From contig JANQQS010000134.1 in assembly GCA_028284955.1 (NCBI GenBank), forward strand, positions 1 to 32,855: a stretch of DNA of 32,855 bases. The letters run 5' to 3'. The notes under the pieces are model-generated. The model saw only the letters and a program-made list of their open reading frames with translations. It had not been told where the DNA came from and searched no databases. Position numbers and translations under genes: made by a program. Below, in pieces: positions 4,241 to 32,855 of the stretch. Each line of letters starts with the position of its first letter. Position 1 is the first letter of the stretch. The DNA is from Myxococcota bacterium (GTDB taxonomy: Bacteria > Myxococcota_A > Polyangia > Polyangiales > Houyiibacteriaceae).

Positions 4241-5593
4241 TTGAAGGAAGGATTGACCACATTGCGGGATGACTCGGCCGAAGCCGAGCGGATGGTGCGT
4301 GCGCTTCGAGGGCTGCGGGTACGCGTGGAATCGGGTGCAGAGGCAGGCCAGGAGGTCACTACCGAGGCAGGCGGAAGCATTGCGGTGGGAGCGGCGGCGG
4401 ACAATGAGCTTCAGCTCAGCGACGCCACGGTGAGCCGCTATCATCTCGAGGTACACGCCACGCCTGACGGGATTCGGGTGCGAGATCTGGGTAGCCTGAA
4501 CGGCACCTGGCTTTCGGATGTCCGGGTGGAGAGCGCGTTGGTTCCGTATGGCACGCGACTGGGGGTGGGCAAAACCGTCCTTCGCGTTGAGCTCGGTGGC
4601 GACGCGTCGCGTTCTGCGCGTGCGGACCATGTGTCGGTTCCGGGGCTCATCGCTCAGAGTCCGGTGATGATGAACGTAGCGCGGACCGTTCAGCGTATCG
4701 GGCCCACCATTGTCTCGGTTCTTCTTCATGGCGAGACAGGTACCGGAAAAGAGGTCGTTGCGCGCGCTATCCATGATTGCTCAGAGCGCGCCAGCAAACC
4801 GTTCATCGTAGTCGATTGCGGCTCGATGGCCCCTACGCTGATCGCGTCCGAGCTTTTTGGCCACGAACGTGGCGCATTTACGGGGGCGGACCGGCGCCAT
4901 ATTGGCGCATTCGAACGAGCCGACGGCGGCACGATTTTTCTCGATGAAATCGGCGAGCTACCGCTCGACGTTCAACCGTCTCTACTGGGTGTACTCGAAC
5001 GGATGCGGTTTCGCCGGGTTGGTGGCGACCGGGAGATCGGAGTCAATGTTCGTGTGATTTCCGCGACGCATCGCGACTTACGGCAAGCCGCAAACACCGG
5101 TGCGTTTCGGGCGGATTTGTATTTTCGACTCGCCGTGACCCGCATCGCCGTGCCTGCGCTAAGGGAGAGACCGGGCGATATCGAACCGCTGGTGCGTCAT
5201 TTTGCCGAGCAAATAACAGGAGATCCGGGCGCGATGCCCTTTGACCCAGCGACGCTTGCATCCCTCCGCGAATACCATTGGGCAGGAAACGTGCGCGAGT
5301 TGCGCAATGTCGTCGAAAGCGCGATTGCAGTGGGCCAAATCCTGCTTGATGGGCGCCCCATCTCTCAGGGGCCGGCCCCCGCTCAGCCGGGCACAAAGGT
5401 CCCCTCAGAATCTGGCCCCGTCGCCAGACTGCCTTATCGAGACGCGCGCGCCGAAGCGATCGCGGCGTTTGAGCGAAGCTATCTCGGATCTTTGATTTCC
5501 GACTGCAGTGGCAATGCCTCAGAAGCCGCACGACGAGCGAAAATGGATCGCGCGTACCTCGTCAGCCTGCTGAAAAAACACGGCATGCGCTGA
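4241..5593 (+). CDS. FHA-domain sigma-54-dependent transcriptional activator
   Basis: This is a 450-residue regulator. An FHA phosphothreonine-binding domain (about 25-117; SRYH at 65-68, GSLNGT at 84-89) precedes a sigma-54 AAA+ domain: Walker A GETGTGK at 164-170, the sigma-54 contact loop GAFTGA at 211-216, Walker B ending LDEIGEL at 234-240, and arginine-finger region [10 protein letters not shown] Fis-type helix-turn-helix closes it ([23 protein letters not shown]). It would bind DNA upstream of -24/-12 promoters and use ATP to open sigma-54 polymerase, gated by a phosphorylated partner. The TTG start is supported by GAGGGG at 4227-4232, 8 nt upstream; an ATG at 4292 would cut only the non-domain N-terminus. 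The FHA input is typical of Myxococcota, and the kinase at 8722-9957 is one possible partner. Confidence 0.95.
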
Positions 5594-5611
5594 GCAGTGA
5601 GCTCTGTTTTT

Positions 5612-5820
5612 AGGGTCTGGCACCCAGACCCTCTCGGCCGGGATACGATCCCGGCCGATTCACCCAAGCTCCCCCGCCAGGCTGCACGTGGCCTGGTTAC
5701 GTGGGGGTGAACTGCCGGGGCCCCGCCGCTACGCGGTGGGGCGGACGCGACAGCGGCCGGAGTCGGGTGGGGGTTCCCCGCGGGGCGTACCCGCGGGGGG
5801 GAGGGTTTGCATCAAACTCT
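5612..5820 (+). repeat. Repeat A copy 1 (full, six hairpins)
   Basis: Six consecutive hairpins: H1 5612-5632 (AGGGTCTGG, loop CAC), H2 5635-5657 (CGGCCGGGAT, loop ACG), H3 5720-5742 (GCCCCGCCGC, loop TAC, one G-T pair), H4 5743-5758 (GGACGC, loop GACA, one mismatch), H5 5776-5798 (CCCCGCGGG, loop GCGTA), H6 5802-5820 (AGGGTTTG, loop CAT). Between H2 and H3 lies a linker beginning ATTCACCCAAGCTCCCCC. In this copy TTCACCC (5659-5665) can pair with GGGTGAA (5705-5711) and CCAGGC (5677-5682) with GCCTGG (5691-5696). It fills the gap between two convergent genes, and H6 overlaps the stop codon of the minus-strand gene. Confidence 0.9.
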
Positions 5821-7531
5821 ACTTCGATCTTGGAATGGGCTGAGGCTTATGCGCACTCAGGCTCCGGTCGTCGACGCCAACTCCGGGAACCGCGGGCAAC
5901 GCACCCGGAGGCTTGGGGGTTGCTTCGGGAGGGGCTACCGATTTTCGCGCCGGCAATGAACTTCGCGGCGCGGGAAGGTCCGGAAACCAACTGAAGAACT
6001 GACGCAGCTTGTCCTTCTGGGGCGGAGGGAGGTAATCGAAGTTCACTCCGCGGTCGCTGATTTCCCAAAACTCCGCCGACTTCACGCTCAAGAGCTCGTC
6101 GCGAATGGACGCCATGCGTTCACGCCGCTCCCCGGCCATATCCCGAAATACCTCCTCGGCAAGTTCACGATTGCCCTTCAGCAGGTAGTGCGTGGCGAGT
6201 TTGACCTGCGCTTTGCGCACGCCTCGCAAGCTCTGCTCTTGCACCTCGCCTTCACTCTCCTTGTCGACTTCGAGGAAAATACGCAGCAGCTCGGGTGCGG
6301 CTGGGCTGCCGCGGTCAAACGCGTATTCGTTCAGCGCACAAAGATCGTAGGCCACGGTTTCGAGAATGAACGGGAGCTTCGCATGAAACGAAACCAATCC
6401 ATAGTATTGAAAGTGGCGAGCGATATCGATGGCGAGCGCTCCATCTTCCAAGTCGAGCACGCTTTCGGCGAGCAAGCGATATTGGTTGAGGACGTTGTAC
6501 GCGGTGCGCACGTCGCGAGCATTGATCGTCGAGCGCAGATAGGTGTTAAAGAATTTCACGACCAGCTCGTACAGCTGACGATTGCCGACATCGATGGCCG
6601 CGTTTGCAATGTGCCGAGTATTGATCGCGATGAGGTAGTTGATATCGCGCATGCGATTCAGTGCTTCGTTGTACAGCGTCTGGTATTTGCGCAGGATTTT
6701 CATTTCAAACCAGATCTGCCGGTCGGTGACCGCACGCAAAACATCTTGAGACATCGACACGAAATCGGGGTTGTGGCTGAGCTCTCCTTCAATACGAAAC
6801 CAATCCGCGCTGAGATCTCGCCGCACCGATTGGTAATCGATAATCATTGCTCGGAGCGCATCGACGCTCGCCATCGAGACACCTTTGTCTTTGTGCTCCA
6901 TGGCGTTAAGACCGACGTCAGCGAGCTGTTCAACACCTCGGCTGGCCTCCGCCTGACGCTGTTCCACCGACATCCGCCGCCGTCGACGACGAATGGTATC
7001 GATGGCGTGAAGACGCATGCGATGCACAATCTGAATAGGGTTCAGAAACGAAAATACGAACGCAAAATACGGCAACAAAATCAGCAAGCATAGCGCGAGC
7101 ATGACCATCGAAATCGTGATGCCGAAGTACGGTACGAAACCGCTCGCCGTTTCGCCTGAGCCGTCGAAGGTAATCGCGACAAATACGGCCTGCAGCGCGG
7201 TCACCACAAAGAAGCCCATCACCGCAAAGTTGATAGGCTCCCCGACGAACAGCTCGGTGATCCGATGGGTATAGCGGTTGGACGCGAGCTCAACGATGAT
7301 GGCAACAACAGTAATCGCGATGGCCAGCACTGCAGCGACGACCTCGCCGGCGTTCGAAATCGTGTTCGCGGCCGCTTCTGGATTGGGGTGGTAGAGCAGC
7401 TTGAGATGTGCCAACTCGCCCGTGCTATCGATCCAAAAGCCAAAAAGGAATACGAGGAGCGAAGCGCCTAGCAGAATAAGAAAAGGCAATAGCCAAATGC
7501 GCCACGCGCGCGCTTGATGAGGAACGGACAT
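5819..7531 (-). CDS. DUF2254 predicted membrane protein
   Basis: This 570-residue protein has four N-terminal membrane helices (for example IWLLPFLILLGASLLVFLF and EVVAAVLAIAITVVAIIVEL) and then a long soluble, mostly helical region to the C-terminus. The first two helices with the intervening loop and the second-helix motif followed by RYTHR resemble the DUF2254 family of inner-membrane proteins, whose function is not established. The ATG at 7531 was chosen because GGAG lies just upstream on the minus strand and a charged-then-hydrophobic N-terminus follows. A GTG at 7597 would add 22 polar residues. The last codons run into repeat A copy 1. It is transcribed divergently from the HD-domain gene. 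Confidence 0.75.
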   Translation of the reverse strand: MSVPHQARAWRIWLLPFLILLGASLLVFLFGFWIDSTGELAHLKLLYHPNPEAAANTISNAGEVVAAVLAIAITVVAIIVELASNRYTHRITELFVGEPINFAVMGFFVVTALQAVFVAITFDGSGETASGFVPYFGITISMVMLALCLLILLPYFAFVFSFLNPIQIVHRMRLHAIDTIRRRRRRMSVEQRQAEASRGVEQLADVGLNAMEHKDKGVSMASVDALRAMIIDYQSVRRDLSADWFRIEGELSHNPDFVSMSQDVLRAVTDRQIWFEMKILRKYQTLYNEALNRMRDINYLIAINTRHIANAAIDVGNRQLYELVVKFFNTYLRSTINARDVRTAYNVLNQYRLLAESVLDLEDGALAIDIARHFQYYGLVSFHAKLPFILETVAYDLCALNEYAFDRGSPAAPELLRIFLEVDKESEGEVQEQSLRGVRKAQVKLATHYLLKGNRELAEEVFRDMAGERRERMASIRDELLSVKSAEFWEISDRGVNFDYLPPPQKDKLRQFFSWFPDLPAPRSSLPARKSVAPPEATPKPPGALPAVPGVGVDDRSLSAHKPQPIPRSK

Positions 7532-9957: not shown

Positions 9958-10252
9958 GTTGTTCGGAGGGGCTCTGGAACGAACCGAGTCGACCAGCGCT
10001 CCCACTTTTCGTTCTTGCTCCGCTTCCAGTTGCGTACCATAGAACGCTGAGATTTTGAGTCTGATTGCGAGCGCCCCCACAGCGAACGACTGAGAGGTAC
10101 AAACGTACCTCGCAGGGAGGGAGCGAGGAGGTTGTTGCGACTGGAGCTGTGCAAGGCGGAGCGGACGTAGTCCGTGGAGCTGCACAGCTCTAGACGCAGT
10201 ACGGGTCCGAAGGACCCTAGTCCAGCCGCAAGCAGGCCAAAATATCAGCGTT
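9958..10252. repeat. Hairpin-rich gap with repeat B copy 2
   Basis: This gap separates the convergent kinase and ftsZ genes. The repeat B core is at 10028-10078: AGTTGCGTA (10028-10036), a 23-nt block at 10046-10068 matched exactly (reverse complement) at 32538-32560, and the 19-nt block 10060-10078 matched at 61-79. Hairpins follow: GAGGTAC/GTACCTC with loop AAAC, a long stem GAGCTGTGCA/TGCACAGCTC enclosing CGGAC-GTA-GTCCG, and GGGTCC-GAA-GGACCC. A block at 10111-10130 is 18/20 identical to 32591-32610. No gene is apparent in any frame. Confidence 0.7.
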
Positions 10253-13053: not shown

Positions 13054-14646
13054 ATGCGCGCTAGCTTGGTTCTGTCCAGCGTTTGCATGCTTCTGGGTTC
13101 GTGCTCATTGCTCGGTTGGGACGACGATCTCGAACCTGCAGAATGCTCGTCGTCCGCCGATTGCCAGGTATTGGAGGAGCGTCACCCGCTCGCCGACGAT
13201 TGCCAACAATGGCTTTGCGTACAGCGACGCTGTGAGCCTGGGCCGCGGGACCAAGATCTCGACGGGTCGCCCGCCGCAGAATGCGCTCCAGACGGCGCTG
13301 AGGTCGATTGCGACGACAACAACGATCGACGCGCACCCGCACTCACCGAACAATGCGATGGCGTGGACAACGACTGTGACGACACGATCGACGAGGAGAC
13401 GCTGTCGAGCGACGATGTTGCATTTACTTCTGCGTTTGAACCCGAAGGAGGTAGCGCGACGCAGGTAGATTATGCCGCAGTGAATGGATTCGACGCTGCG
13501 CTCACTGCGTTCGCCGCGCCAGGAGCAGCGTTCGCCGACGCTCTGAGCTCGGGAAGCAGCGACGAAGCTTTCGGCGCCGTCTCCGCTATGGGCGGTCCAA
13601 CCGACATCGCCGCAAGCCGCGGCGTAGCGCTTGCCGCAACGGGCGATGATGCTGCCGCTGTCGCGCTTATCCCAGCCGGATGCGCACGCGTAGTATTGGG
13701 CACCATCGCCCGCAATGTGATGACGCTCGCCGAAAAACCGGGGGCACCCCCGATGACGCATTTCTCGGAAGGGCTTCCCGACACCACGGGCGCGGTGTGC
13801 GCCGCGGCGACACGAAACCTGCGCACGCCAGCCATCGCCGTAACCGACAGCCAGGTCCTCACGCTCTGGGTCAACGCCGAAGCTTCGGAAAACTGTGGCA
13901 GTGCGACTGCGGGGCCGGTGCTCGCAAACGGTGGCACCCGAGGCTCGGGGACCATGTCCAATGTCATCGTTCCGGGAACCGATCCCGCAAACGAACTCGG
14001 CATGACCGACGATATTCGCGCGCCGGCCTTAATCGGCACCGGAAACGGGGAATTCCTGGTCGCGTTTAGCCTCGCCGGAACCGTCACGCTGCGCCATCTG
14101 CGGGTCGATGAAACAGGCAGCGTGGCGCTCGTTGGTTCGCAAGAGATCGAAATCGACACCGCCAACCCGGTGGGCGACCTGACGCTCGCGGCAGGCCCAC
14201 AAGACGGCGATACTCAATCGCTCGCCCTCGCCTATCGACAAGGTTGCGGCACTCGCTCTCGGGTTGGGGTGGTCGCTCTGAGCTGGAACACGAGTAGCGG
14301 GGAAATTGCGATGAGCAACGCAGGACCCAACAACCTAGACGGAGAGCACGAAGGAGAGCGGCGACCTACCCTCGCGTTCAAGCAGCAGCCGCTCGGCTGG
14401 TTGGTCGCTTGGGATGCAGACAACGGCACCACCCTGCGCGCCCGACAAACCGCGCCCGACGGCACACCCACCGGAAACGCCTTTTTGCTTCTCGACGCCG
14501 CCGGACAAAACGCCACCGAACTTGAGGTTCGCCACGGTTTGCTCGCGCAGCCGCTACAAGCGGAAGACGGCTTCCTACTCTTCACCTACGCGAGCGCGGA
14601 CGGCAGCGGCTCATTCTTCCGCTCGAACCTGACCTGCTCCGAGTGA
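13054..14646 (+). CDS. Secreted lipoprotein with MopE-type metal-binding motif
   Basis: The 530-residue product begins with a lipoprotein signal peptide: MRAS, a hydrophobic core and lipobox LLGS followed by Cys. A Cys/Asp-rich region follows (about 25-115) that contains DCDDNNDRRAPALTEQCDGVDN and then DCDDTIDEE. This is the putative metal-binding motif of MopE-like proteins, very common in Myxococcota surface proteins. The remaining 400 residues are rich in Ala, Gly, Thr and short beta-strand patterns, suggesting a beta-propeller or similar, but I do not recognise the family. The ATG at 13054 is preferred over TTG at 13009 because the signal peptide begins there and GGGGGTG precedes it. The protein is probably surface-anchored; its ligand is unknown. 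Confidence 0.8.
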   Translation: MRASLVLSSVCMLLGSCSLLGWDDDLEPAECSSSADCQVLEERHPLADDCQQWLCVQRRCEPGPRDQDLDGSPAAECAPDGAEVDCDDNNDRRAPALTEQCDGVDNDCDDTIDEETLSSDDVAFTSAFEPEGGSATQVDYAAVNGFDAALTAFAAPGAAFADALSSGSSDEAFGAVSAMGGPTDIAASRGVALAATGDDAAAVALIPAGCARVVLGTIARNVMTLAEKPGAPPMTHFSEGLPDTTGAVCAAATRNLRTPAIAVTDSQVLTLWVNAEASENCGSATAGPVLANGGTRGSGTMSNVIVPGTDPANELGMTDDIRAPALIGTGNGEFLVAFSLAGTVTLRHLRVDETGSVALVGSQEIEIDTANPVGDLTLAAGPQDGDTQSLALAYRQGCGTRSRVGVVALSWNTSSGEIAMSNAGPNNLDGEHEGERRPTLAFKQQPLGWLVAWDADNGTTLRARQTAPDGTPTGNAFLLLDAAGQNATELEVRHGLLAQPLQAEDGFLLFTYASADGSGSFFRSNLTCSE

Positions 14647-21639: not shown

Positions 21640-21687
21640 GAGGGTCTGGCCGTCTGTTTGTTTGAGGGTCTGGCCGTCTGTTGTTTG
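21640..21687 (+). repeat. Iterated 23-24 bp units leading into repeat A copy 2
   Basis: GAGGGTCTGGCCGTCTG begins at 21640 and again at 21664, and GAGGGTCTGG begins at 21687 as the first arm of hairpin 1 of the full element. The period is 24 then 23 bp, separated by T-rich spacers. The same unit occurs twice at 133-169 in the opposite orientation with a 23-bp period. Confidence 0.85.
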
Positions 21688-21944
21688 AGGGTCTGGCACC
21701 CAGACCCTCTCGCCGGGGTACGACCCCGACGATTCACCCAAGCTCCCCTGCCAGGAGGCACGCGATCTGGTTGTCTAACGGGTGTACTGCAGTCGTGTGT
21801 TCCGGCAATCACCGCAACGAACGTGCAACGCCTAACCGGGGCCCCGTCGCGTAGCGATGGGGCGGCCGCGGAAGCGGCCGGCGGCGGGAGGGGGGCCCCG
21901 CGGAATCGTATTCCGTGGGGGGAGGGGCTGCGGCCAGCCCCTCC
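21688..21944 (+). repeat. Repeat A copy 2 (full, longer linker)
   Basis: H1 21688-21708 (as copy 1), H2 21711-21731 (CGCCGGGGT, loop ACG, one mismatch), H3 21841-21863 (GCCCCGTCGC, loop GTA), H4 21864-21879 (GGCCGC, loop GGAA), H5 21896-21920 (CCCCGCGGAAT, loop CGT), H6 21921-21944 (GGAGGGGCTG, loop CGGC). The linker between H2 and H3 is about 47 bp longer than in copy 1 but starts with the same ATTCACCCAAGCTCCCC. It lies between convergent genes (PepSY-like lipoprotein and XRE regulator). Confidence 0.9.
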
Positions 21945-21968
21945 AGAAACTCAGCCCCTCCAGAAACT
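21935..21968 (+). repeat. 17-bp tandem duplication at the end of repeat A copy 2
   Basis: CAGCCCCTCCAGAAACT is present at 21935-21951 and again at 21952-21968. The first copy contains the 3' arm of repeat A hairpin 6. The second reaches the TGA stop codon of the minus-strand XRE gene (21968-21970). Confidence 0.85.
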
Positions 21969-24092: not shown

Positions 24093-25034
24093 ATGTTCAA
24101 GTCGACCTGCGTATTCTCCGGAAACGCGCACCCTGAGCTCGCGAAGAAAATCTGCGAGTACCTTGAACTTCCGCTCGGTCGCTGCCGAATCGCTCGATTT
24201 TCGGACGGTGAAGTCTTCGCGGAGATCGAAGAGAATGTGCGCGGGGTCGACGTCTACGTCATCCAGCCCACGTGCAGCCCCGTCAACGACAACCTGATGG
24301 AATTGCTGGTGTTGGCAGACGCACTCAAACGCGCGTCTGCCGGGTCAGTCACCGCGGTGCTGCCTTACTACGGCTACGCCCGTCAGGACCGGAAAGCCGC
24401 GCCGCGCACTCCGATCACGGCGAAGCTGGTCGCCGACCTAATCAGCGCATCGGGAATCAACCGAGTCGTGTCGATGGATTTGCACGCGGGTCAAATCCAA
24501 GGCTTCTTCAACGTTCCCTTCGACCACCTGTTTGCAATGCCCGTGTTTCTGGACCACCTGGGCTCTCGTTTTCCGGACGCTCCGGTATTTGTGTCTCCAG
24601 ATGCAGGGGGAGTGGAACGAACGCGCGCCTACGCCAAACGCATGGGGGCCGACCTAGCCATCGTCGACAAGCGGCGCGGCGCGCGAAACCACAGCGAGGT
24701 GATGCATATCATCGGCTCGGTATCCGATCGTCGATGCGTGATTCTCGACGATATGATCGACACGGCCGGCACCCTCACCAATGCAGCTCAGGCTCTGAAA
24801 AACGCAGGCGCGAGCAGCGTAGCGGCGGCAGCTACCCACGCCGTGCTTTCCGGCCCGGCGATCCAACGCATCCAAGACTCGTGTTTGGAGGAAGTCTTGG
24901 TCACCGACACGATCCCTCTCTCGCCCGAAGCCGCAGCCTGCGACAAACTGCGCGCGCTTTCCGTCGCCCGGCTCCTTGGAGAAGCTATCAAACGGATTCA
25001 CCACAGCGACTCCGTCAGCTCGCTTTTCGTGTGA
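24093..25034 (+). CDS. prs: Ribose-phosphate pyrophosphokinase
   Basis: This 313-residue enzyme makes PRPP from ribose 5-phosphate and ATP for nucleotide, histidine and tryptophan synthesis. Key motifs are intact: FSDGEVFAEIEENVRG, PYYGYARQDRK, the catalytic His in VVSMDLHAGQIQGFF, and the PRPP loop VILDDMIDTAGTL. Length is normal. GAGG lies 5 nt before the ATG. It heads a housekeeping run with rplY 52 bp downstream, the common prs-rplY-pth order. Confidence 0.98.
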   Translation: MFKSTCVFSGNAHPELAKKICEYLELPLGRCRIARFSDGEVFAEIEENVRGVDVYVIQPTCSPVNDNLMELLVLADALKRASAGSVTAVLPYYGYARQDRKAAPRTPITAKLVADLISASGINRVVSMDLHAGQIQGFFNVPFDHLFAMPVFLDHLGSRFPDAPVFVSPDAGGVERTRAYAKRMGADLAIVDKRRGARNHSEVMHIIGSVSDRRCVILDDMIDTAGTLTNAAQALKNAGASSVAAAATHAVLSGPAIQRIQDSCLEEVLVTDTIPLSPEAAACDKLRALSVARLLGEAIKRIHHSDSVSSLFV

Positions 25035-25086: not shown

Positions 25087-25683
25087 ATGGAAACGATTTC
25101 GCTGCACGCCGAGGTTCGAAACTCCCGGGGTAAGGGACCAACCCGAAAACTCAGACGAGCCGGCCACTTGCCGGCGGTACTCTACGGGCCCCATGAAGAC
25201 CCTACTCCGGTCACGATTGCACCCAAAGAACTACTTGCGGGACTAAAGAGCGAACGAGGCCGCAACTCACTGTTTGAGGTGTTGGTCGGAGATCGGAAAG
25301 AGTTGGCGATGGTGAAGGACGTCGCGGTCGATCCGGTGACGCGCCACCCCCTCCATGTAGACCTCTACAAAATAGACCTCACCAAGCCCGTCCGAGCGCA
25401 CGTCCCTTTCAGCACCACCGGTCGCGCGGTCGGCGTGCAACAAGGGGGAATCCTGAACATTCCCCTGCGGACCGTGCCCGTGCGCTCTACGCCGGACCGA
25501 ATCCCCGTCGTGATCGAAGCGGATGTCTCCAACTTGGGTATTCATGAGACGGTCTCGGTTGCTGACTTGAAGCTACCCGAAGGCGTCGAAGTGATGCTGC
25601 GTCCTCAGCTAACGCTGGCCATCGTGCTGGAAGGCAAGAAGTCGGCGGCGGAGGCGACCGCCGAGGAGCCCGACGCTAGCTAG
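25087..25683 (+). CDS. rplY: 50S ribosomal protein L25 (general stress protein Ctc type)
   Basis: The 198-residue long form of L25 binds 5S rRNA. The N-terminal domain (ISLHAEVRNSRGKGPTRKLRRAGHLPAVLYGP) and the C-terminal Ctc (TL5) beta domain (VRAHVPFSTTGRAVGVQQGGILNIPLRTVPVRSTPDRIP, ending VMLRPQLTLAIVLEG) are both present. The last residues are acidic and Ala/Glu-rich. GGAGAAGAC precedes the ATG. The TAG stop (25681-25683) is also the first three bases of the inverted repeat that bounds repeat A copy 3. Confidence 0.97.
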   Translation: METISLHAEVRNSRGKGPTRKLRRAGHLPAVLYGPHEDPTPVTIAPKELLAGLKSERGRNSLFEVLVGDRKELAMVKDVAVDPVTRHPLHVDLYKIDLTKPVRAHVPFSTTGRAVGVQQGGILNIPLRTVPVRSTPDRIPVVIEADVSNLGIHETVSVADLKLPEGVEVMLRPQLTLAIVLEGKKSAAEATAEEPDAS

Positions 25684-25917
25684 AGCAGCGGTCAGTTTGC
25701 CTGAGGGTCTGGCACCCAGACCCTCTCGTCGGGGTACGACCCCGCCGATTCACCCAAACTCCCCCGCCAGGAGGCACGTGACATGGTGGCCGGGGAGTTC
25801 GTCGGATGTATTTACGCTGCGTGATTTCGAACAACCATACTGACCTCTGCTCTAGTCTATGGGATGCGACCTGAGCTGCAATTGACCCATTTGATCTGCA
25901 ATAGAGCGGCGGTCAGT
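25681..25917. repeat. Inverted and direct 16-bp copies flanking repeat A copy 3
   Basis: TAGAGCAGCGGTCAGT (25681-25696) recurs inverted at 25839-25854 with one mismatch and directly at 25902-25917 with one mismatch. The first and second copies enclose truncated repeat A copy 3, as the ends of a small transposable unit would; the third may be a remnant or a duplicated target. The rest of the rplY-pth gap (25684-26000) shows no gene. Confidence 0.65.
25704..25799 (+). repeat. Repeat A copy 3 (truncated to hairpins 1-2 and linker)
   Basis: H1 25704-25724 is identical to copy 1. H2 25727-25747 (CGTCGGGGT, loop ACG) has one mismatch. The linker ATTCACCCAAACTCCCCC follows, then similarity ends near 25799. 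Here AACTCCCC (25757-25764) can pair with GGGGAGTT (25792-25799). Hairpins 3 to 6 are missing. It lies between rplY and pth, both on the plus strand. Confidence 0.85.
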
Positions 25918-32537: not shown

Positions 32538-32642
32538 GCAATCAGACTCAAAATCTCAGCACTCATACGCAACTTGGCCTTCTGATCTTTCGCAAGGAGA
32601 GAGCGAGGAGATCGTCCGCGATCAGGCCAAAAGGATGCTGCT
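32538..32642 (+). repeat. Repeat B copy 3
   Basis: A 23-nt block at 32538-32560 is the exact reverse complement of 10046-10068, and TACGCAACT (32566-32574) is the reverse complement of 10028-10036. A second block, 32591-32610, is 18/20 identical to 10111-10130 but in the same orientation, so the two blocks are rearranged between copies. CTTGGCC-TTC-TGATC and GATCAGGCCAA form a stem around the second block. Confidence 0.75.
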
Positions 32643-32653
32643 TTATGTTGTCT

Positions 32654-32855
32654 GGAGGGTTTGAGGCAAACCCTCCCCCCACGGAATACGATTCCGCGGG
32701 GCCCCCCTTCCGACTCCGGCCGCTTTCGCGGCCGCCCCACCACGACGCGGCGGGGCCCCCGCAGTTCAACCCAACGTAACCTGGTCTCGTGCTTCCTGGC
32801 GGGGGAGCTTGGGTGAATCGTTCGGGATCGTATCCCGAACGAGAGGGTCTGGGTG
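32654..32855 (-). repeat. Repeat A copy 4 (reversed, cut by the window end)
   Basis: Read on the minus strand: H1 is cut by the window end (32844-32855); H2 32819-32841 (CGTTCGGGAT, loop ACG, perfect); linker with ATTCACCCAAGCTCCCCC; H3 32734-32756 (GCCCCGCCGC, loop GTC); H4 32718-32733 (GGCCGC, GNRA-type loop GAAA); H5 32677-32701 (CCCCGCGGAAT, loop CGT); H6 32654-32676 (GGAGGGTTTG, loop CCT, perfect). It follows repeat B copy 3 directly, and no gene lies between it and the lipoprotein start at 32514. Confidence 0.9.

Follow-up and report, generated by a model that had tools for sequence, protein, structure and literature searches.

Repeat A copies in the window

The DNA analysed (the window) is a stretch of 32,855 nt from an assembly, G000, of 6.07 Mb in 223 contigs that is 96.55% complete. 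An initial annotation had described a six-hairpin element, here Repeat A, in four copies, and four copies are present essentially where it had placed them. Copy 1 (5611–5823, + strand), a full-length profile match, lies between the 3' ends of convergent genes with stop codons at 5593 and 5819. Copy 2 (21688–21947, +) is also full length and has a longer centre, as determined with the profile and with models of its two end units (R1, 21686–21752, +; R2, 21874–21955); two extra leader units, GAGGGTCTGGCCGTCTGTTT(G), which are half hairpins, stand ahead of it (21641–21687, +). Such tandem half-hairpins without a second arm also occur at 126–173; they stand either ahead of full copies or apart from them. 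Copy 4 (32649–32855, −; profile and R2 model) is inverted, and the contig end cuts through it. Copies 1, 2 and 4 have all hairpins in common, but copy 3 has the first three only.

Copy 3 proved to be one R1 unit (25702–25768, +; R1 model, 93.1 bits; profile match 25704–25798, +) inside a separate element of 174 bp, the short form (25681–25854, +). Scanning and pairing of its terminal inverted repeats (TIRs), together with Pfam matches and the stop position, define this element: the TIRs are of 19 nt, TAGAGCAGCGGTCAGTTTG..CATACTGACCTCTGCTCTA, and the left neighbour is a C, giving the target CTAG. The short form sits between a ribosomal L25 gene (25087–25683) and a peptidyl-tRNA hydrolase gene, both assigned with Pfam, and its first three bases, TAG, serve as the stop codon of L25. 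At 25902 there is a single left TIR (TAGAGCGGCGGTCAGTGTGG), 48 bp past the short form and before the peptidyl-tRNA hydrolase gene. A further repeated stretch (GCAATCAGACTCAAAATCTCAGC, GGGGGCGCTCGCAATCAGA) at 46–79, 10046–10093 and 32538–32560 is likely another dispersed element. A Pfam scan of the genes neighbouring Repeat A in the window found no transposase, in agreement with the initial annotation.

Paired two-hairpin units

Rather than six independent hairpins, the long form of Repeat A is an inverted pair of homologous units placed back to back. The R1 unit, of about 67 nt, consists of two hairpins and a 20-nt linker (hp1-hp2-GATTCACCCAARCTCCCCCGCC), and the R2 unit repeats this design in the opposite orientation. 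In copy 1, R1 comprises hairpin 1 (AGGGTCTGG-CAC-CCAGACCCT, 5612–5632, +), hairpin 2 (TCGGCCGGGA..TCCCGGCCGA, 5634–5658, +) and the linker TTCACCCAAGCTCCCCCGCC (5659–5678, +). The central hairpins 3, 4 and 5 (5676–5759, +; sequence, fold and an alignment of 20 copies) separate it from R2 (5753–5822, −), which has the linker GGAGTCGGGTGGGGG, hp6 (5775–5799) and hp7 (5800–5822) and is supported by covariation and by a match to the R2 model (5753–5834, +, 80.6 bits). The R1 covariance model also matched the opposite strand of the 3' unit (window 5756–5822, −, and 21883–21944, −; elsewhere 38 bits at most), and the R2 model matched the R1 unit on the opposite strand (for example, window 5601–5681, −, at 37 bits). 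The leaders of the two ends also agree in the alignment of 20 copies, with CTGTTTTTTGAGGGTCTGG at the head and, read inward, CTGTGTTGTTCGGAGGGTTTG at the tail; these related leaders stand at both ends of the long form, which lacks the TAGAGC TIR. The R1 linker is nearly invariant, as had been noted before, and its conservation extends to two other genomes. Since the units are inverted homologues, one conserved linker pairs with the other in the manner of a REPIN: in the fold predicted for the entire copy, CACCC..CTCC of the R1 linker pairs with GGAG..GGGTG of the R2 linker (z −4.6), and hp1 plus hp2 of copy 1 gave a DNA fold with z −5.7. Paired linkers and inverted units are the plan of a REPIN (PMC3116915).

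Pairing of hp1 and hp2, and of hp6 and hp7, is backed by compensatory change. Alignment A1 holds the first 67–69 nt of 40 copies from G000 and two other genomes, and A2 the last 82 nt of 28 copies. In A1, 10 pairs had changed on both sides, with 61 compensatory cells versus 21.6 in shuffles; in A2 the figures were nine pairs and 83 cells versus 32.8. Both covariation scores exceeded every shuffle, and covariation was lost in both alignments when the partner was slid by 1–3 columns. In hp1 (A1 columns 3–23), 99.4% of cells were paired, with compensatory U-A/G-C and C-G/U-A changes, and in hp2 (columns 25–49) 7 of 10 pairs had changed on both sides. Matched changes of the hp1 arms include GGGTCTGG/CCAGACCC, GGGTTTGG/CCAAACCC, GGGGCTGG/CCAGCCCC and GGGGTTGG/CCAACCCC and, across genera, TCTGG/CCAGA, TTTGG/CCAAA and GCTGG/CCAGC. 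In both units, compensatory change was seen within the genome as well as between genera. We take this covariation as evidence of pairing and not as proof of an RNA function, because intrastrand template switching in quasi-palindromes gives matched changes without selection. Copies from two other genomes, G008 and G015, show symmetric T.C mismatches in the hp2 stem (A1 columns 27–31 with 43–47), that is, tandem G.A on the opposite strand. An attempt to orient the single strand from G.A versus T.C mismatches was dropped, as the hairpins contradict one another.

Copy number, gene ends and empty sites

With copy 1 as query, BLAST against the whole assembly scored 40 of 269 first-look candidates and gave at least 95 matches (E ≤ 1e-3), many of them tandem and many at contig ends. 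Like the DNA fold of hp1 plus hp2 and the covariation scores, this exceeds chance by a wide margin. A profile built from 20 copies detected 47 pieces in 26 islands over an 810-kb sample of the genome, to which 20 further stretches were added; 23–24 of the islands lay away from a contig start. Extrapolation from the 810 kb suggests about 200 islands per genome. Many G000 contigs end within the short form or Repeat A (C153, C183, C29, C56, C107, C136 and others), so Repeat A breaks the assembly and its copy number is underestimated.

Genes were called with a simple codon-usage caller to place the islands. The R1 end, or head, faced the 3' end of a gene in 54 of 60 islands (20/23 and 34/37), compared with the 41% expected for random placement over spacers (p ~3e-15), and in codirectional spacers it did so in 18 of 20 (p 4e-4). 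Convergent spacers accounted for 12/23 islands versus 40/258. The stop codon commonly precedes hp1 by 2–35 nt; in the TIR form it is mostly at exactly −23, and in all eight heads with a stop at −23 the inverted repeat supplies it, as TAG or TAA. CTAG is under-represented in the genome (0.85 per kb versus 3.6 expected), and the long form has CTAG at its tail in just 3 of 68 cases and at its head only sometimes. The adjoining genes vary in identity. The element is, as first described, not tied to any one gene by identity, but its position is tied to gene ends, just past stop codons. REPs of E. coli also cluster within 15–20 nt of stop codons (PMC12306157), so Repeat A shares its stop-codon proximity with REPs.

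A covariance-model search beyond the locus, as the initial annotation had proposed, detected relatives in 36 of 184 genomes of the order (R1 model in 17, R2 model in 27); over 379 genomes of the phylum, the R1 model gave weak matches in two genomes outside the order. Judged by these matches, R1/R2 relatives occur across Polyangiales. The exact linker pattern had no match in the genome collection, which possibly does not include the genome itself; a looser, gapped R1 pattern matched only the MAGs HCUG1432-5 and UBA1660 (matching G008 and G015), and the viral contigs searched for the pattern gave no match. A search of the available literature found no described Polyangiales repeat of this kind. 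Some R2 relatives lie directly after tRNA genes and after SRP RNA with a T-run (gene identities by eye). At one locus (L085:12856–12923 and 14551–14625), R1/R2-like units stand right behind two tRNA genes and are followed by tandem repeats with GATTCACCCCTACCGTTTGGCTCGCGTTCGCTCGCGTTTGG. Two direct units around 1.7 kb (C211:12.8–14.6 kb) were considered as a possible autonomous element and rejected, as what they enclose is a pair of tRNA genes and a gene of ordinary appearance, and no transposase was seen.

Occupied and empty sites could be compared for the R1 relative in G155, a genome of another genus with a 13.2-Mb main contig and five congeners, by querying three sites with their flanks in sister species. 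All three (L213, L215 and L217) were empty there: an empty site has one CTAG, and a filled site has the element between CTAGs, the left one being degenerate at L217. At L213, ATCTACGC-CTAG-..-CTAG-GGCC when filled corresponds to ATCTACGC-CTAG-GGC when empty; at L217, ..GCT-CTAG-ACTGCG corresponds to ..CTAG-ACTGCG. At L215, the filled site reads CAGGT-CTAG-TCCCGAGG..GATGCT-CTAG-CTGG and the empty site CAGTT-CTAG-CC, and at both the upstream frame (read by eye) ends in this TAG as its stop codon. In the sister genome G154, however, the L215 site holds short remnants of both element ends, indicating deletion there rather than a site that was never filled. The filled sites fit either a duplicated CTAG or one borne by the element. 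G155 has very few CTAG sites (0.17 per kb), but 8 of 12 copies have one at positions +44 to +47 past the unit, versus 0.008 expected. Together with the empty sites, this indicates that relatives of Repeat A move and that they target CTAG. At L210, L212 and L213, the unit is preceded by extra hairpins with CTAG on either side (CTAGAGCATCGAGCGG..CCGCTCGATGCCCTAG) and followed by AGAGCATCGAAC..GTTCGATGCTCTAG.

Probable mobility and comparison with known systems

We interpret Repeat A as a non-autonomous, REPIN-like mobile element with a two-hairpin core that inserts at or just after stop codons and, in the short form and the G155 relative, in CTAG; we give this reading a probability of about 0.7. 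The mobile core would be the two-hairpin unit followed by the conserved C-rich linker. In the long form, two inverted units would close the element by pairing of their linkers, and in the short form a single unit would travel in a TIR-bounded carrier. Insertion would occur at or just past stop codons, with the head pointing to the gene upstream; the target of the short form and of the relative would be CTAG, often where its TAG ends the upstream gene, which would remain intact, and copies may then duplicate further in tandem. The moving enzyme presumably recognises the hairpins and may be encoded elsewhere or have been lost. High copy number and inverted pairs agree with the non-autonomous mobile element suggested initially; as empty sites are known for the relative in the other genus, it is by analogy that Repeat A itself probably moved in the same way.

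The short form raises another possibility, namely that of a classical TIR MITE, in which a DDE transposase that targets the TA in CTAG, as IS630 does, cuts at the TAGAGCAGTGG inverted repeats and the hairpin units are passengers. IS630 prefers TA in CTAG, according to a reference cited in PMC2170065, and the short form of the window, with its TIRs and its CTAG, fits this. In several G000 copies, likewise, the R1 unit lies in 148–175 bp whose ends are inverted (TAGAGCAGTGGTCAGTTTG..CATACTGACCACTGCTCTA); of these short forms, four in the sample are complete, and more have the left end alone in view. Moreover, the genome contains 117 occurrences of the TIR core versus five of the reversed control, and the TIR recurs in a second palindromic family. 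This family, of 126–127 bp (TAGAGCAGTGGAATTTTGG..CCAAAAGGCCACTGCTCTA; L098–L103, C29:42911–43037 and 24141–24266; L092–L097, C155:78952–79078), is often nested beside Repeat A. However, the IS630-type DDE_3 domain had no match in the window genome, in G008 or in G157, and IS630 was set aside as the mover; the long form and the R1 units of G008 and G015 have no TIR, and the shortest G155 form (L215) begins CTAG-TCCCGAGG and finishes GCTCTAG, ends that are not inverted repeats. We therefore regard a TIR MITE as unlikely.

The placement and orientation relative to stop codons, together with the strong covariation in both units, could also be accounted for by a structured RNA in 3' UTRs that stalls ribosomes, stabilises RNA or terminates transcription and is kept by selection just past stops; in E. 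coli, REPs lying no more than 15 nt from a stop codon do stall ribosomes (PMC12306157). Yet comparison with Rfam, at gathering and at permissive thresholds, gave no convincing match, and the neighbouring genes vary. No T-run follows the hairpin; the T-run lies before hp1 on the head strand, mirrored at the tail, and Repeat A is therefore not an intrinsic terminator. The related element is missing at the tested sites of the sister species, and template switching can yield the compensation within a genome. A selected RNA thus appears improbable.

The initial annotation had pointed to RAYT or IS200/IS605 transposases as candidate movers. The window genome has one Y1_Tnp gene, RAYT-like (C158:16674–16928), which scored 73.6 with the NCBIfam REP_Tyr_transpos model, below the cut-off of 80. 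No unit was found beside this gene or the other Y1 loci of the family, nor did the gene have a convincing flanking TIR, and of 35 transposase loci tested three (L271, L189 and, marginally, L194) had a unit within 1.5 kb, all in unit-rich genomes. Y1 is absent from five unit-carrying genomes (G155, G156, G044, G182 and G054), and over 184 genomes its presence did not correlate with units (18/36 with units, 68/148 without; p 0.71), although, because repeats often drop out of MAG assemblies, absence is no proof. Given this lack of linkage and of correlation between Y1 and the repeat, we consider a REPIN in the strict sense, with this enzyme as its mover, the least probable reading, despite the inverted, extragenic, high-copy doublets that Repeat A shares with REPINs and the near-threshold score.

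The REPIN-like mobile element that we favour adds to the REP/REPIN world a Polyangiales-wide repeat superfamily with an unusually clear anatomy of paired two-hairpin units, with presence and absence in sister species for a relative, and with a target, the stop codon, whose use leaves genes unharmed. Tentatively, these repeats may form a class of hairpin-ended, CTAG/stop-codon-targeting non-autonomous DNA across Polyangiales whose mover is neither a RAYT/IS200 Y1 nor an IS630 DDE enzyme. As Y1 is missing from several hosts, the question of what moves transposase-less palindromic repeats becomes directly testable.

Among known systems, IS200/IS605 non-autonomous elements share subterminal hairpins, insertion beside a fixed tetranucleotide and, with the shortest G155 form, non-inverted ends, but several hosts of the units lack the Y1 enzyme. 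CGTC-tagged REPs and Rickettsia palindromic elements (PMC3733652) are likewise palindromic families without a dedicated transposase, but Repeat A has no CGTC tag at that place, has paired units and forms an order-wide Polyangiales family. IS630/Tc1-type MITEs resemble the short form in TIRs and a TA/CTAG target; they differ in that the long form has no TIR, the hairpins are subterminal and the window genome has no DDE_3 gene. Because no transposase was found and the shortest relative lacks TIRs, we do not file Repeat A under IS630 MITEs. REPINs and BIMEs, which are RAYT-associated REP doublets, come closest: they too consist of homologous palindromic units paired in inverted orientation, number hundreds of copies outside genes, occur as tandem mosaics and are often found just past stops. 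Repeat A shows the high-copy extragenic palindromes in inverted doublets by which REPs and REPINs are recognised. Its unit of two hairpins and a linker is, however, longer (about 67 nt versus 20–40), insertion in the tested relative is CTAG-associated, and neither GTAG nor CGTC stands beside the hairpin in A1 or the heads, which have instead a T-rich leader, TTTGAGGG or TTTTAGGG. We do not file Repeat A as a REPIN, as tests for the tag and for a link to RAYT found neither. Nevertheless, it works like a REPIN or MITE.
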